IMG/VR virus record: IMGVR_UViG_3300030113_000006
Span: 1 to 64,000 of that record
Direction: 5' to 3' (one strand)
Source: a virus
DNA length: 64,000 nucleotides
The notes beneath the pieces were generated by a model. The model made no database searches and was not told the DNA's origin. It saw only the letters and a program-made list of their open reading frames with translations. Shown here in pieces: positions 5,880-35,577 of this stretch. Within the stretch, counting starts at the first letter, position 1. Every line of letters begins with the position of its first letter. Both the position numbers and the translations under genes were made by a program.

Positions 5880-8800
5880 ATGGCAAGATATAATCCAGTT
5901 AACGATCAGATAGCAGCTGGCGCAGGAATATCTATAATCAACAATAGTGTTGGTATTGCGATTATATCTGCTACAAATAATGCCCCGTCTACAACCGTAG
6001 CTAACAGTATAGCAATATATATTGATACGCAAGGAACATTTGGTAGCAGCGGTATAACCATTGATAGTTCTAATAATATTGCCGGCATTTCTTCTGTTGG
6101 GTGTGCAGCTGTAGAACTTAATAGCAATAATACTTATTACACCTCTATTGCTTCCCCTAATGGTTTAACAGAAACAATAAATTATATAATGCCGGCTACA
6201 ATAGGTAATGCTGGCAACCTGCTTGTATTAAATTCCGTATTAGGAAACACTGCAACCCTTACGTGGGCAACGGCTGGTGGTGAAGGTATCATAACTAGTG
6301 TTACCGGCACTACTCACCAAATTAGCGTGACATCCGGTACAGCGCCACAAATATCTATAGCTAGTGATTATGCTGGTCAATCAAGTATCACAACCATTGG
6401 AACAATCACTACTGGAACATGGAATGCCAGCAATCTTACAGAATCTCAAATTACTAACCTTACTACCGATTTGGAGGCATGTGAAAAGATAGCTAACAAA
6501 GGGGTGGCAAGCGGCTATTGCCCATTAAACAGTAGCACTTTAGTTCCTCTTTCAAATATACAACAAGACATGTCTATTGATTTGTTGTCAAATTCGTTGG
6601 CTGCTTTTGTTGATAAAAATAGTATAAATAACATTGGTGACAACTTATTAAATTTTTATAATTACAATCAAAATTACCCTTTGGCTTCACTTTATGCAAA
6701 TTGGATAACAATAAGTGTTGCTAATAATTCATATAGAACAAATATTGACGCTTGTTATCCTGTCACATTTACAAAAATCAACTATACTGTAAATTCTGTA
6801 ACTAATGGCGGATATACATTAAATATATACGGAAGTAATAACACAACTAATTTTTATGACACAAGCACATCAGATTTATCATCGTTAACATTAGTAAATT
6901 CGTCACCAATCACAATTACAGCAACAGGAAATACAACTGTAACACCTTCAGGATTTAGATATTACCATTTGTTATTTACACCTGTAAATAGCGGTACATC
7001 AACACTAACAGTTGTGTTATCTTTTAATTATAAAAATTATTCTCCTGTTTGTGGTTTAGATTTAACAACTGGATATATTGCAACATCTACCGTTCCAAAC
7101 TACTTAGTGAAGTCTATTAATGGTATTACCACAACAAACAATGCTATTACATTAGATTTATCCAACCTAAATGATTGCGCGATAACAACATCAACACTAG
7201 CAAATAACCAAGGATTAATTTACAACTCATCAACCTCAACATGGGTAAATCAACAAATAGATCATACAACTTTAGCAAACATTGGCACCAATACTCATGC
7301 ACAAATAGATAGTTTTATAGCATCTAAAAGCAATGCGAATGGATTGGCCGCTCTGGATTCCAACGGTCAATTAGTTTTGTCTCAAATCCCTAGTATTGCT
7401 CTTACAACTGTTAATGTTGTAGCAACTATTGCTGAACGTAACGCACTAACAGGTATCCTTACTGGAGATGTTGTTATAGTTACAGGCGATCCGATAAGCA
7501 GCAACGATGGATCTTATATATATAATGGAACTGGATGGAGCACCCTATCAGTATATATTCAACCTACCAATCTATCGTCATTAACCGATGTAAGCGAAGG
7601 TACATTAGCAGATGGTAATCTACTTGAGTATTCAGCCTCGCTTGGCAAATGGACTAATTATATTTTTACTGGTAATACATCAATAACCACTCTTGGTGCC
7701 GTTACTACTGGAACTTGGAACGCTGGAGTTATAGGTTCTAGTTATGGCGGAACTGGTGTTAATAATAGTGGCAACACAATTACTATTGGTGGTAGCGTTA
7801 CCGTATCTGGTGCGTATACAACGACCCTAAATGTAACTGGCAACACTAATATTACATTACCTACTAGCGGCACCTTAGCTACAACATCATCTATACCTAG
7901 TTTACCATTGTCGGTTGCTAATGGTGGTACAGGACAATCTTATTTTGCTCCTTATTGTTTGCTTTTAGGTAACCAATCTGACGGTATAAATACGACTTCA
8001 ATATATGTGCATAATGGTTATAACATGTATGGCGTTGGGATTTTAAGTTTTACCAATTACCTAAATACTGGAACCGCTAATTTTTTCCTTGGCGCAACCA
8101 TGACGGAAAATGATACATATATTTTACCAACATCAATGGGGGCGGTTGGCAACGTATTAACAATAGGCAATCTTAATAATACAACTAATGCTATATTATC
8201 ATGGACCGCCCCATCTGTTGGAACTACTGCCCTAGCAGGGCTAACTACAGACACACAGATTACTGGTACACCAGTAAGCGGAAGTTTGCTTATGTACCAA
8301 GATAGTGCTACCAACAAATGGATTAACACGACTATTGCTCCAACTAATGATCAACTATTAGTATACACAACGTATGGATCTGCAAATAGTTGGACTCCAT
8401 ATACCCTTAGTGGCGCGACATTTAGCGATAGCACTAAGACTATTACGATTGCTAGTGGAACGGCTACAGCGCTACAATCAGCCACTACTGTAGTTTCTGT
8501 TAGTGCTGCTACTGCTCCAACAGTTAATCAAGCACTTGTAGCAACAAGTGGTACTTCAGCTACTTGGCAAATTCCAACAGTATTAGGTACTGTGACAACT
8601 GGTGTGTGGGCTGCCACACCAGTTACAGTTGCATATGGTGGTACCGGGGCTGCTTCCTGTACGGCGTATGCTCTTATTGCCGGAGGAACTACTACAACTG
8701 GCGCACATCAAAGTTTAACTACTGGAGTCTCAAATCAAATACTACTTTCTGGTGGTGCTGCTGCATTACCAACTTGGACAACAAACCTAACTGTTTCTCA

Positions 8801-29417: not shown

Positions 29418-30095
29418 ATGGAAAGAAAAAGAAATAATTTACGTTGCATTACCAGTCGCAATAATAACATTAATAATATTATTGATAATCATTCGGTAGC
29501 AAGAGACGTAAACGCAAAACCTAAAATAAAGACTAGTGAGTTTGCCATTCAGAAATCCTTTTTTGAGTGGCTTAAACACTATCCACATATAGACGAAGTA
29601 ACTATATCTATACCTAATGGAGGTATTAGAACTGCCAAAGAAGCAATATTTTTAAAGATGACTGGCCTCAAGGTTGGCGCTCCAGATGTTTTCATTTTTT
29701 ATCCTAGCAATGGTTACCACGGATTAGCCATTGAATTTAAAAGTGAGCATGGCAATATAACTGTGCCGCAAAAGCAATTTTTAAACACCTTGGCAATGAA
29801 AGGATATAATTGTGCAGTTTGCTATTCGTTAGAGGATGCTATAATTAGAGTAGAGGAACATCTTAAGTGCAAGAGAGATGAAAGGGAACTAGAATTAATA
29901 TCCAAGGCTCGTACTCTTGATGTTAAAATCATTATAAAGAACGATCAACTAGAACTGATGTTTACAAATTATTCTAACAATTTGATTGACAGACTATGTG
30001 AGCAAATTAAAAACAGAGAAGTAAACATACGTGCTTTATTAATACAAAGATGGATAGAACAAGGTAAACAAGACACTGTAGTTATAGATGGCTAA
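29418..30095 (+). CDS. VRR-NUC domain nuclease
   Basis: 225 aa. Residues 40-155 carry the VRR-NUC fold of the PD-(D/E)xK nucleases: an N-terminal Glu in a helix, then Gly-Ala-Pro-Asp-Val, a Glu-Phe-Lys strand (catalytic D, E-x-K) and a Gln-x-x-Phe-Leu helix. Stand-alone VRR-NUC proteins are common in phages and act as Holliday-junction or structure-specific nucleases, here possibly clearing branched DNA before packaging. An 11-codon open frame at 29405-29437 has the better ribosome site (GAGGCGG) and overlaps the start, so the initiation point is uncertain; Met 29418 is the first in frame. Confidence 0.82.
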   Translation: MERKRNNLRCITSRNNNINNIIDNHSVARDVNAKPKIKTSEFAIQKSFFEWLKHYPHIDEVTISIPNGGIRTAKEAIFLKMTGLKVGAPDVFIFYPSNGYHGLAIEFKSEHGNITVPQKQFLNTLAMKGYNCAVCYSLEDAIIRVEEHLKCKRDERELELISKARTLDVKIIIKNDQLELMFTNYSNNLIDRLCEQIKNREVNIRALLIQRWIEQGKQDTVVIDG

Positions 30096-30981: not shown

Positions 30982-31479
30982 ATGTACACAAACAGCCCAA
31001 AGAGTGACGTCACCACAGATGATAACGACTTAGATTATAACATGTTGTATCATGTAGAAACCATGCCAGAATATATCGTGTGGCAAGAAATGATCCGCAG
31101 GTGTTACGAACCAAATCACCCAAGCTATAAAGATTTTGGTGGGATGGGTGCTACTGTGTGCCATACATGGCAAATTGGCTTTGGCACTTTTTTAAATGAT
31201 GTAGGCAGGATGCCATTAGATGGCTCTTACATCCTAGAAAGAATTGATAGCACGCAATCATATAATAAAGATAATTGTAGGTGGCGAGTAACCAGAAGAT
31301 ATAACACAGCAAACACATCAAGTCTACCAATAACAAACTACCCACCAGCAACTATAGCCGTACAACCAATGTTATCAACACCACCAATGTTAAATCTATC
31401 TTCACCCACAGCAAAGGACGGTAAGCATATACCATTACCACCTAAACGGCCTCATAAGATTGGGTGCCGTATACTTTAA
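30982..31479 (+). CDS. HNH-type homing-endonuclease-like protein
   Basis: 165 aa. Residues 30-110 match a phage HNH-like family: Trp-x-x-Met-Ile-x-Arg-Cys-Tyr, Tyr-x-Asp-Phe-Gly-Gly, Val-Cys-x-x-Trp, Tyr-Ile-Leu-Glu-Arg-Ile-Asp and Asn-Cys-Arg-Trp. The stop codon TAA overlaps the ATG of the terminase gene (TAATG), so the two are translationally coupled. Position directly before an intein-bearing terminase is notable, as freestanding endonucleases can promote spread of neighbouring introns or inteins. The C-terminal 50 residues are Pro/Thr-rich and probably disordered. Confidence 0.72.
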   Translation: MYTNSPKSDVTTDDNDLDYNMLYHVETMPEYIVWQEMIRRCYEPNHPSYKDFGGMGATVCHTWQIGFGTFLNDVGRMPLDGSYILERIDSTQSYNKDNCRWRVTRRYNTANTSSLPITNYPPATIAVQPMLSTPPMLNLSSPTAKDGKHIPLPPKRPHKIGCRIL

Positions 31480-33260
31480 TGCCAAAAACCAGCAGCAAAA
31501 GTAGCACTATAGTATCATCAGCATTATTATCATCCCTATCACCCACATTACCATTAAGCGCATCTATAATAAACTACCCTACTTTTAAACCGCGACATTA
31601 TCAACGCGAGTTACTGGATGCTTTCTTTATAGGTAAAAGCAAAAGGTTTTTTTACTTGTGTCACCGTCGCGCCGGCAAAGACATGACGTGTTGGAACTTA
31701 ATGTGGGGGGCGGCACTACAACGGGTAGGCACATACCTTTATCTACTTCCACAGCATAATCAATCAAGGAAGGTAATTTGGAAAGGAATTATAGGAGATG
31801 GGCGTACCTTCTTAGGAATGATACCAAAACAATTAATAAGAAAAGTTAACAATACCAACATGTCAATTGAACTAGTTAACGGATCAATTATACAACTAGG
31901 TGGCGGCAAAAACTTTGATGCCCTTATGGGTACTAACCCAGTAGGTATCGTCCTGTCGGAGTTTGCTTTACATTCCCCAATGGTGCTCGCATACCTTAGT
32001 CCAATTCTAGTAGAAAACGGTGGTTTTCTTATATGCCAAACAACCCCCCGCGGTAAGAACCATGCGTACCAAACGTTTCAGGCGGCGTTACAGGAACCAG
32101 ACTGGTTTGTAAGAAGGTGGACCATAGCTGACACTAAGAAGTTTGACGGTACCCCAGTAATTACGGAGGCACAAATTGAGGCCGAAAGAAGGAGTGGGGT
32201 ATCAGAGGAAATGATTAGGCAAGAGTGGTTCCTAGATTGGGCGGTAGGTAATGTGGGCGCCTACTATACTAGCGAGTTAGATGACTGCGAATATAGTGAA
32301 CGTCTATTAGACTGGCAAATAGACCCACGACTTCCAATTTATACCTTTTGGGATTTGGGTATTTCGGATGCGACCGCTATTTGGTTTATGCAGCCAGATG
32401 GGTACGATCTTAAGATGGTCTATTATTATGAGGCTACTGGGCAAGGATTCTATCATTATGCGTGTAAGCTAGATGAGCTCAAAGGGAGATTTGGGTTTAA
32501 GTATAAATACCACTATGCACCTCATGACGTAAAACAAAGGCATTGGGGGCATAACCCAAGATCTACATTACAACTAGCGGCCGAATGTGGGATTAGTTTC
32601 CTAGTAGTACCAAGGGTAAGTGTTGAGGAGGGTATTCAGGCAGCCAAAGCAATATTTCCTAGTGTTTGGTTTCATCAGACTAATTGTGCGCAAGGTATAG
32701 AAGCCTTAAGGGATTACCATAGAGAGTTTGACGAGGAAAATAGATGTTTTAAGGATAAACCAGCTCATACTTGGTCGAGTAATTGTTTTGCCGGAGACAC
32801 CAAAATATTGACGCGTAATGGAATATATCGAATAATGAATTTACCCAAGGAAGGAGAAATTTTAACAAAATATGGCTGGAAGCAATATATAAATCCAAGG
32901 ATAACACAGAAAAATGCTCAACTTATGGAGGTTGTGTTCAAAGACGGAGTTATAGTGAGATGTACGCCGGAACATTTGTTTTTAACAGAAAAAGGATGGA
33001 AATATGCAAAAAACCTAATGCAACATGAAAATATTGTTGCAACAATTGTAAATCGGCTAAGTATAGAAAGCGTACGAGAACTAAATTGTATTGAAGATGT
33101 TTGGTGTATAACGGTTCCAGGGATAGAACATTTTTCATTAGCTAATGGTGCTGTTGTTCATAATTGTGGAGATTCCTTTAGATATTTTGCAGTTACTTGG
33201 AAAGAGGTATACCAACGGCCAGAAATGAGTGAGCAAACAACATATCAAAGTAATTTCTAG
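31479..33260 (+). CDS. Terminase large subunit precursor with intein
   Basis: Start chosen at the ATG overlapping the HNH stop; the alternative GTG at 31464 has no better site. 593 aa including a 127-aa intein. The ATPase has a Walker A-like Arg-Arg-Ala-Gly-Lys-Asp (63-68) and a Walker B-like strand ending Leu-Ser-Glu (about 155-161). The nuclease has Trp-Asp-Leu-Gly (Asp292) and the final conserved block His-Thr-Trp-Ser-Ser-Asn / Cys-Gly-Asp-Ser-Phe-Arg-Tyr, split by the intein between Asn435 and Cys568 (numbering from this start: intein 436-562, next Cys 563). After splicing the enzyme would be 466 aa and package DNA into the procapsid. Confidence 0.9.
   Translation: MPKTSSKSSTIVSSALLSSLSPTLPLSASIINYPTFKPRHYQRELLDAFFIGKSKRFFYLCHRRAGKDMTCWNLMWGAALQRVGTYLYLLPQHNQSRKVIWKGIIGDGRTFLGMIPKQLIRKVNNTNMSIELVNGSIIQLGGGKNFDALMGTNPVGIVLSEFALHSPMVLAYLSPILVENGGFLICQTTPRGKNHAYQTFQAALQEPDWFVRRWTIADTKKFDGTPVITEAQIEAERRSGVSEEMIRQEWFLDWAVGNVGAYYTSELDDCEYSERLLDWQIDPRLPIYTFWDLGISDATAIWFMQPDGYDLKMVYYYEATGQGFYHYACKLDELKGRFGFKYKYHYAPHDVKQRHWGHNPRSTLQLAAECGISFLVVPRVSVEEGIQAAKAIFPSVWFHQTNCAQGIEALRDYHREFDEENRCFKDKPAHTWSSNCFAGDTKILTRNGIYRIMNLPKEGEILTKYGWKQYINPRITQKNAQLMEVVFKDGVIVRCTPEHLFLTEKGWKYAKNLMQHENIVATIVNRLSIESVRELNCIEDVWCITVPGIEHFSLANGAVVHNCGDSFRYFAVTWKEVYQRPEMSEQTTYQSNF
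32784..33164 (+). other. Mini-intein within terminase
   Basis: 127 codons from Cys1 (Cys-Phe-Ala-Gly-Asp-Thr) to a terminal His-Asn, followed by the +1 Cys. Block A is the Cys-Phe-Ala-Gly-Asp-Thr-Lys-Ile stretch; block B is Cys-Thr-Pro-Glu-His (the Thr-x-x-His motif) near intein residue 57; block F is Val-Trp-Cys-Ile-Thr-Val-Pro; block G ends Val-Val-His-Asn-Cys. All residues needed for splicing are present. It has no homing endonuclease domain. The insertion lies one residue before the conserved Gly-Asp-Ser of the nuclease, so an unspliced terminase nuclease would be inactive. Confidence 0.93.
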
Positions 33261-33991: not shown

Positions 33992-34342
33992 ATGTCATTG
34001 AGTAGCGGCCAATATAAAGAAGTCACATCAAATCAAATAGCATCAGCATTAAACTTTTTAGACTGTAATTGTAACTACTCAGAATGGATCAAGTCTGGAA
34101 TGGCAATACACTCATGGAGCGCTGGAAATGATGGTTTTTGCTTATGGGATACAGCTATTTCCATGTGTATTTTTGCTGGATATGATCCAAAACAAACTTT
34201 AGTAAAAGTTATAGAAAAATTTGGAGGTAGAATGGAGGTTGTAAAAAAACTTACAAAAGAGCATGATCTTTTAAATTTAAAAGATCAACCAATAGAGTTT
34301 TTACTTGAACTATGGCGAGAGGCTAAAAAACAAAAAAATTAG
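33992..34342 (+). CDS. Stand-alone PriCT-2-like domain protein
   Basis: 116 aa. Residues 12-75 follow the PriCT-2 pattern of primase C-terminal domains (Ala-Leu-x-x-Leu, Tyr-x-x-Trp-Ile-x-x-Gly-Met-Ala-Ile, Gly-x-Asp-Gly-Phe-x-Leu-Trp-Asp), but the usual downstream Lys-containing helices differ and no primase or helicase domain is attached. An AAGGAAG site is 5 bases before the ATG. It lies 14 bases before rtcB in one operon. It may bind DNA or RNA ends. Confidence 0.5.
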   Translation: MSLSSGQYKEVTSNQIASALNFLDCNCNYSEWIKSGMAIHSWSAGNDGFCLWDTAISMCIFAGYDPKQTLVKVIEKFGGRMEVVKKLTKEHDLLNLKDQPIEFLLELWREAKKQKN

Positions 34343-34356
34343 AGAAGTTATAAAAA

Positions 34357-35577
34357 ATGAACAATTATATAGAAATAAATGGATCTACTAATAACCCTAT
34401 TAAAGCATGGATTAAAGGTGTTGAACTTGAAGAGCAGGCAAAACAGCAACTACTTAATATTGCATCGCTTCCTTTTATCCATAACCATATAGCCATAATG
34501 CCAGATGTACATTGGGGGATGGGTGCTACAGTCGGTTCTGTTATTCCTACTATAGGGGCAGTAATTCCTGCTGCAGTAGGGGTTGATATTGGTTGTGGGA
34601 TGATGGCGGTTAAGACTAGTCTAGTTGCGTCTGATTTACCAGATAATCTTTTAACTTTAAGAACAGCAATAGAAAAAGCAATTCCACATGGCAGAACTAA
34701 TAATGGTAGAAGCGGCGATAGGGGAGCATGGGCGCGAGTTCCAGATCATTATGTTAAAGAGTTTGATTTTAAAGGGTTAGATTTGATTGTTGAAAAACAC
34801 CCAAAGATTATGGATGCTGCTAAAAGAGCGCCACATCATATGGGTACTTTAGGTACTGGCAATCATTTTATTGAGATTTGTTTAGATGAAAATAATGCAG
34901 TATGGATAATGTTACATTCTGGATCGAGAGGTGTTGGTAATCGTATTGGTACTTATTTTATAGAATTAGCTAAAGAAGATCTAAAAACAGCTGGTATTAA
35001 TTTGGTTGATGTAGATTTGGCTTATTTAAACGAAGGCACAAAATATTTTGATGATTATATTGAGGCTGTTAGCTGGGCGCAACACTTTGCTAGAATTAAT
35101 AGAGAAATAATGATGCAAGCTTGTATTAAATCTATGCGTAATATTATCAATAAACATTTTTTATGCGATCTTATGGTGGTAAATTGTCATCATAATTATG
35201 TACAAAAAGAATATCATTTTGGTAAAGATGTTTGGTTAACAAGAAAAGGTGCTGTGTGTGCTTCTGAAGGAGTGTTGGGTATTATTCCTGGTAGCATGGG
35301 GGCGCGTTCTTTTATTGTAAAAGGCAAAGGTAATAAAGATTCTTTTGACTCTTGTTCTCACGGAGCAGGTAGAAGGATCTCTAGGAACGAGGCTAAAAGA
35401 AGATATACTCTTAAAGATCATATTAAAGCTACCCAAGGGGTAGAATGTCGTAAAGATCAAGATGTTATCGATGAAACACCGATGGCATATAAAGATATCG
35501 ATAAAGTTATACAAGCTCAATCTGATTTAATTGAGGTTGTACATACTTTAAAACAGGTTTTGTGTGTTAAGGGATAA
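34357..35577 (+). CDS. rtcB: RNA-splicing ligase RtcB
   Basis: 406 aa, full length for bacterial RtcB, which joins 2',3'-cyclic-phosphate or 3'-phosphate ends to 5'-OH ends using GTP. Metal-binding Asp77 and Cys80 lie in Val-Asp-Ile-Gly-Cys-Gly; later come Gly-Thr-Gly-Asn-His-Phe-Ile-Glu-Ile, the Leu-His-Ser-Gly-Ser-Arg-Gly-Val-Gly loop, His-His-Asn-Tyr, Pro-Gly-Ser-Met-Gly, and the Ser-His-Gly-Ala-Gly-Arg loop with the guanylated His. No disabling change is visible. Phage RtcB can repair tRNAs cut by host anticodon nucleases; here it is coupled to a PriCT-2-like gene rather than to rtcA or rtcR. Confidence 0.93.
   Translation: MNNYIEINGSTNNPIKAWIKGVELEEQAKQQLLNIASLPFIHNHIAIMPDVHWGMGATVGSVIPTIGAVIPAAVGVDIGCGMMAVKTSLVASDLPDNLLTLRTAIEKAIPHGRTNNGRSGDRGAWARVPDHYVKEFDFKGLDLIVEKHPKIMDAAKRAPHHMGTLGTGNHFIEICLDENNAVWIMLHSGSRGVGNRIGTYFIELAKEDLKTAGINLVDVDLAYLNEGTKYFDDYIEAVSWAQHFARINREIMMQACIKSMRNIINKHFLCDLMVVNCHHNYVQKEYHFGKDVWLTRKGAVCASEGVLGIIPGSMGARSFIVKGKGNKDSFDSCSHGAGRRISRNEAKRRYTLKDHIKATQGVECRKDQDVIDETPMAYKDIDKVIQAQSDLIEVVHTLKQVLCVKG

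Follow-up and report, generated by a model that had tools for sequence, protein, structure and literature searches.

Inteins are usually described as a splicing domain fused to an in-frame endonuclease domain, and the route by which endonucleases came into mini-inteins is an open question. The gp41-1 intein is naturally split, and fractured genes, which Dassa and colleagues are said to have described in 2009, reportedly consist of split inteins with a free endonuclease gene between their halves. Inteins carrying an HNH endonuclease in frame are known, for instance in the dCTP deaminase of cyanophage CL131 (PMC6293099), and in-frame inteins of the large terminase (TerL) have been found via their endonuclease domains in crAss-like phages (Yutin et al. 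2021, PMC7886860). The ShiLan domain and the Pacc40 insertion represent another arrangement, in which an HNH gene lies out of frame within a phage gene whose own frame is uninterrupted (Arsenault, Gosselin, Gogarten 2025, PMC11855218); the insertion could not be identified as an intein or an intron by its authors (PMC11855218). Here, we report on the TerL intein of a virus found in a stretch of 64,000 nucleotides (positions 1 to 64,000 of the IMG/VR record IMGVR_UViG_3300030113_000006; hereafter the window). It is a real TerL mini-intein that very probably descended by internal deletion from an intein with an out-of-frame, nested HNH gene. The terminase gene is organized as follows:

31479-33260, plus strand: large terminase (TerL) precursor, 593 residues; its ATG overlaps the TAA of the upstream open reading frame (TAATG); match to phrog_2, E=7.6e-26
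31479-32783, plus strand: TerL N-extein (ATPase and most of the nuclease domain), ending in HTWSSN
32784-33164, plus strand: mini-intein of 127 residues, class 1 (Cys1, TxxH, His126-Asn127, Cys+1), supported by profiles, AlphaFold2 and Foldseek
33165-33257, plus strand: TerL C-extein, starting with CGDSFRY of the conserved nuclease motif; stop codon at 33258-33260

The first-pass annotation of the window had placed a 127-residue mini-intein at these coordinates inside the nuclease block of TerL, which is borne out by the coordinates, the translation, the profiles and the predicted fold. The translation, CFAGDTKILT...ANGAVVHN, is in frame with TerL and contains every residue named there, i.e. 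Cys1, the Thr-x-x-His of block B (Thr61-Pro-Glu-His64), the block F strand VWCITVPGIEHF and the final His126-Asn127 followed by Cys+1; hence, the catalytic residues are all present. The size arithmetic also holds, because 593 residues counted from the ATG at 31479 minus 127 leave 466. Three curated intein profiles scored above their cut-offs, namely TIGR01445 intein_Nterm with 32.7 bits (cut-off 24.5), TIGR01443 intein_Cterm with 19.2 bits (15.6) and PF14890 with 37.9 bits (35.8). The AlphaFold2 model reached a predicted local distance difference test score (pLDDT) of 97.0, and Foldseek returned the gp41-1 intein 6riz, which has the Hint fold, as the top match (E=3.5e-10, template modelling score 0.85). 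A curated profile search found no HNH or LAGLIDADG match in the 127-residue protein, which makes it a mini-intein, and its N- and C-terminal halves (IntN and IntC) lie in one open frame, so the intein is not split. Judged from its sequence, 32784-33164 is a complete class 1 mini-intein in TerL, the match being far beyond chance. The insertion point lies two residues ahead of the conserved Asp of the nuclease motif, between HTWSSN and CGDSFRY. Since intein-less relatives read HDWASN-GADAFRY, HDWAAD-PADAFRY or HDWTSH-YADMVRY at this site, ligation of the two exteins would restore the motif exactly and without a gap, and the intein is expected to excise itself and to join TerL at HTWSSN-CGDSFRY. 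Only one TerL copy exists in the virus record of 65,340 bases. From the insertion near the conserved Asp, the single-copy TerL and the complete set of catalytic intein residues it may fairly be inferred, as the annotation had done, that genome packaging would need intein splicing.

The origin of the mini-intein became apparent from a sister locus. A patterned scan for the TerL of the window gave one contig, L002, whose TerL is 77% identical in the best segment, the match being 450 nt longer. The L002 intein occupies the same insertion site and is 150 residues longer than that of the window; the terminase frame passes through 150 extra codons without homology between the intein halves. Out of the intein frame, the same DNA encodes an HNH endonuclease (7317-7994; HNH_3, PF13392, 2e-13; phrog_15471, 2e-26) with a C-terminal FCS-type zinc finger (a weak match, below the cut-off), and the third frame of the insert is full of stops. 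The model of the L002 intein has confident splicing (Hint) halves; its insert falls below a pLDDT of 50 at residues 90-108 and 113-210, which is most of the read-through peptide. A comparison with L002 at the codon level located two remains of this gene in the window:

32870-33028, plus strand: relic of the N-terminal extension of the nested HNH in the -1 frame of the intein, with ATA (32870-32872) in place of the ATG of the relatives, CSTYG for CPTCG, and TGA at 33026-33028
33029-33094, plus strand: relic of the C-terminal zinc finger of the HNH in the same -1 frame, KYCCNNCKSAKYRKRTRTKLY followed by a stop, 11.9 bits

The -1 frame of the window intein reads KIWLEAIYKSKDNTEKCSTYGGCVQRRSYSEMYAGTFVFNRKRMEICKKPNAT, a stop codon, KYCCNNCKSAKYRKRTRTKLY and a second stop, and L002 reads DMWMEAIPECENNTEKCPTCGGCVQRRNYGEMYAGAFVHDGERVEIRKTPNEE, an intervening stretch and QKFCSNECRASAYRERKKAGLQK before its stop. 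Relative to L002, the HNH core of about 450 nt, a multiple of three, is deleted between the two relic parts. Among the eight loci of the clade, seven start the nested gene with ATG, at +86 or +92, and one with GTG; the exchange of CPTCG for CSTYG has removed one cysteine. The zinc-finger tail matches positions 144-161 of an HNH profile built without L002, and its score of 11.9 bits was reached by one of 2000 synonymous shuffles of the window intein. Taken together, the lost ATG, the lost cysteine, the deleted core and the zinc-finger tail indicate that the window intein is best read as an endonuclease-deleted descendant.

It might be argued instead that the window carries an ordinary TerL mini-intein that never had an HNH, that the match in the -1 frame arose by chance, and that L002 gained its HNH later. 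The intein blocks alone dictate some of the residues in the -1 frame (IESVR gives YR-R), the relic is short, and an HNH-free TerL mini-intein does exist in the Manatee Spring phage (L003), in which the same relic test gave no significant HNH trace. However, the position of the zinc-finger match in the profile is the correct one and its frame is that expected from L002, with the rarity among intein-preserving shuffles given above; the -1 frame is open over the N-terminal extension, too, where the changes of ATG to ATA and of CPTCG to CSTYG are found; and eight close relatives all carry the HNH. We therefore regard a mini-intein without endonuclease ancestry as unlikely. The Manatee Spring element (MW202478.1, 34520-34918) belongs to a podovirus, is 36% identical to the window intein and sits at the same motif in a different TerL type.

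The nested arrangement is not restricted to the clade of the window. The HNH protein of L002 matches 25 phage records, several of them annotated as terminase. An unbroken TerL-intein frame with the HNH one frame back was seen in Tetrasphaera phage TJE1, a Rhodobacteraceae phage, Acinetobacter phage Highwayman and a faecal phage. An alignment of the phage HNHs was used for one scan of IMG/VR (at least 80 loci) and one of species genomes (63 loci). The loci were classed with home-made IntN, IntC and HNH profiles, whose E-values are relative, and some loci are near copies of each other (L044, L047). Among the matches listed in the two collection scans and the GenBank phages, intein halves flank the HNH in at least 109 distinct loci. 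The intein frame runs contiguously across the HNH in 94 of these 109, with the HNH in the -1 frame in 88 and in the other frame in 6. The remaining arrangement is a split form (15/109), where several stops interrupt the intein frame and IntC is mostly in a different frame from IntN. An HNH of this family in one contiguous frame with both intein halves was found in none of the 109 loci; the detection of in-frame HNH inteins in other, apparently non-terminase genes (L223, L238, L240) indicates that the method is able to see them. In a scan of the N-exteins from 90 loci, all matches were to terminase (large subunit) families. The junctions lie at, or a few residues from, the nuclease motif D-H-x-x-D-A-x-R-Y. 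According to the record titles, the hosts of the contigs belong to Bacteroidota, Bacillota, Pseudomonadota, Actinomycetota, Patescibacteria and Thermoplasmatota. In a quick tree, nested, split and free HNH forms were intermixed. The annotation of the three GenBank phage records examined lacks the nested HNH and presents the long TerL as a single gene.

Some of these loci are worth mentioning in their own right. Frames for IntN, for the HNH or a zinc-finger remnant, and for IntC mark probable natural split terminase inteins in L008, L014, L185, L190-L193, L199, L205 and L213; among them, L008 is Lactobacillus phage CL2 (1670-2771), where the open reading frame of IntC and the C-extein is unannotated, and L014 is Brochothrix phage BL3 (1936-2604). 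The contig L083 has two intein-like regions (109-942 and 1801-2709), the first with the HNH in two pieces only, possibly a decaying copy. Rows of HNH-profile matches a few hundred bases apart occur in L222, L224-L229, L232 and L234, mostly Selenomonadaceae contigs, a pattern that resembles an array of HNH genes or of their zinc fingers.

Whether the terminase frame is open by chance was examined by shuffling the synonymous codons of the HNH in each nested locus and counting the stops in the other frames. Across the HNH, the intein frame has 0 stops compared to 176.5 expected in the 88 loci with the HNH in the -1 frame and 0 compared to 60.3 in the 6 loci of the other offset, i.e. 0 versus about 237 overall. 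The nested group had been chosen as contiguous; the counts are bimodal, however, since loci have either no stop or several and no locus has exactly one. The third frame of the 88 loci contains 1506 stops against 1545 expected, and 19 HNH genes of the same family without an intein contain 111 against 117.7. Hence, only within an intein is the terminase frame kept open across the HNH. Keeping a frame open is easier at the -1 offset, for which the shuffles predict 176 stops versus 1545, and this may explain why the offset dominates. Furthermore, in 244 of 244 pairs of nested HNHs more than 45% identical, identity across the shared bases is higher in the HNH frame than in the intein frame (0.53 vs 0.30).

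The start of translation is a separate question, because the HNH could be produced by programmed -1 frameshifting from the TerL-intein frame, as an IntN-HNH fusion without its own start. The use of the -1 frame by 88 of the 94 nested loci would fit such a mechanism, as would the HNH frame that is open far upstream in the clade of the window. However, in 78 of 95 loci the HNH frame is closed by a stop no more than 30 codons upstream, and Shine-Dalgarno sequences are enriched at the HNH starts: values of -5 kcal/mol or lower were found at 45 of 95, compared to 20.1 expected from start codons of the other frames, a level reached in 0 of 2000 simulations. A start codon is available for the HNH in 94 of 95 loci. 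The start codons, the Shine-Dalgarno enrichment and the upstream stops favour independent initiation of the HNH. In addition, six loci have the HNH in the other frame, and slippery heptamers, sought in the clade of the window, were present for a -1 shift in only one of eight loci. Programmed frameshifting is therefore not favoured and appears rather improbable. Collectively, our data support the notion of a widespread class of phage TerL inteins whose homing endonuclease is probably a separately translated, overlapping gene in another frame, and which may bridge freestanding endonucleases, inteins and the fractured genes of split inteins.

The DNA of the relatives would thus be read twice. The terminase frame would give the Hint halves and a long, probably unstructured linker peptide, and the second frame, usually from its own start codon, would give an HNH nuclease with a C-terminal zinc finger. 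The nested HNH presumably cuts intein-free TerL at the nuclease motif, whose target sequence is preserved by selection, and repair would then copy the intein and the nested gene together (homing). Stops would be excluded from the terminase frame since any one of them would destroy an enzyme that is essential for packaging. The phage of the window would have lost the nuclease and kept only the splicing domain that its TerL needs. Compared with L002, the inteins of L018-L024 show 56-67% identity and their TerLs only 24-37%, a gap as expected if the inteins spread horizontally. Freestanding HNHs of the same family lie directly downstream of intein-less TerL genes in L013, L015, L016 (Yuavirus), L012, L065, L180, L208, L212 and L220; hence, the family seems to be tied to TerL, and it may have moved from this neighbouring position into a mini-intein already present there.

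Several points weigh against the descent of the window intein from a nested-HNH intein and against the dual reading behind it. The relic consists of short peptides, and the zinc-finger test stands at 1 in 2000. Dinucleotide and regional effects are disregarded by the synonymous shuffles. In the clade of the window, the HNH frame is open for more than 30 codons upstream and the HNH start is less certain than elsewhere. Extra conservation of the HNH frame over the intein N half was rejected as evidence for dual coding, as the third frame displays a similar excess; of this overlap, the lack of stops (0 against 6.9 expected) was retained as evidence. Moreover, the evidence as a whole consists of sequences and predictions: the intein, its site, the nested gene in the relatives, the avoidance of stops and the relic can be read in the DNA, and splicing, expression of the nested HNH, its cleavage target and homing are inferred.

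The first-pass annotation had also suggested that splicing is conditional and acts as a packaging switch. The insertion in a catalytic motif of an essential single-copy enzyme would suit a timing of genome packaging, and some other inteins are known to be under environmental control. However, nothing in the sequence marks a switch, and the distribution is sporadic: with home-made profiles, an intein was detectable in none of the 80 TerL relatives retrieved from IMG/VR by a TerL-based scan (L098-L177). The suggestion is thus left without support and conditional splicing appears very improbable; the window intein looks like a sporadic selfish element. Finally, although most loci are metagenome contigs, the idea that the nested HNHs stem from classical in-frame HNH inteins through frameshifts introduced by assembly or sequencing has next to no probability and was rejected. 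The identical offset occurs in isolates (Tetrasphaera TJE1, Acinetobacter Highwayman, Frankia sp. AgB32, Rhizobium lusitanum P1-7), a pair of errors that compensate each other would be required in every case, the code for the C-terminal part of the intein overlaps the end of the HNH, and 94 loci with one open intein frame contradict the idea.

Some neighbouring genes should be mentioned as well. A second HNH-type open reading frame of another family (30982-31479; phrog_3377, 6.8e-24) ends on the TerL start of the window (TAATG) and has a counterpart in L002 (5332-5925); after the loss of the nested HNH, this second one could act on the TerL region. Just downstream of TerL, 34357-35577 encodes an RtcB RNA ligase without an intein (PF01139, 427 bits). 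The packaging genes are flanked by a VRR-NUC nuclease (29418-30095) and a PriCT-2 primase-type fragment (33992-34342).

The class of an independent, out-of-frame gene shows that an endonuclease can enter a mini-intein without fusion. The freestanding gene beside TerL, the nested gene, the split intein and the stripped mini-intein form a natural series in which each step is testable. Nested HNHs are hidden by gene finders; the loci represent a large natural collection of genes forced to overlap and could also supply protein engineers with small TerL inteins. In the full-text literature searched, whose scope excluded older subscription papers and leaves priority uncertain, no account of an endonuclease lying out of frame within a splicing intein was found; this kind of intein is apparently undescribed.

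Compared with the known systems, the window intein shares the Hint fold, the length of about 127 residues and the class 1 residues with gp41-1 and other phage and cyanobacterial mini-inteins (PDB 6qaz, 6riz, 7cfv). Unlike gp41-1, it is contiguous, resides in TerL and contains remnants of an HNH gene in another frame. In-frame HNH inteins (CL131; L223, L238, L240) resemble the relatives of the window intein in having the HNH between the splicing halves, but their intein protein contains the endonuclease as a domain, whereas in the relatives the endonuclease is a separate overlapping gene in another frame. The crAss-like TerL inteins are alike in the host gene, and the passages of that report consulted here (PMC7886860) make no mention of an out-of-frame HNH. 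The ShiLan type and our 94 loci have in common an HNH out of frame within an open host frame; unlike in ShiLan, the HNH of the relatives is enclosed by a complete Hint splicing domain with halves on both sides, and no mycobacteriophage was among the organism names shown for the 25 phage matches of the L002 HNH. The fractured genes, finally, are alike in having the endonuclease as a separate gene between IntN and IntC, which is the form of the 15 split loci such as that of Lactobacillus phage CL2, but they differ from the 94 nested loci, which keep both intein halves in one frame through the endonuclease gene.
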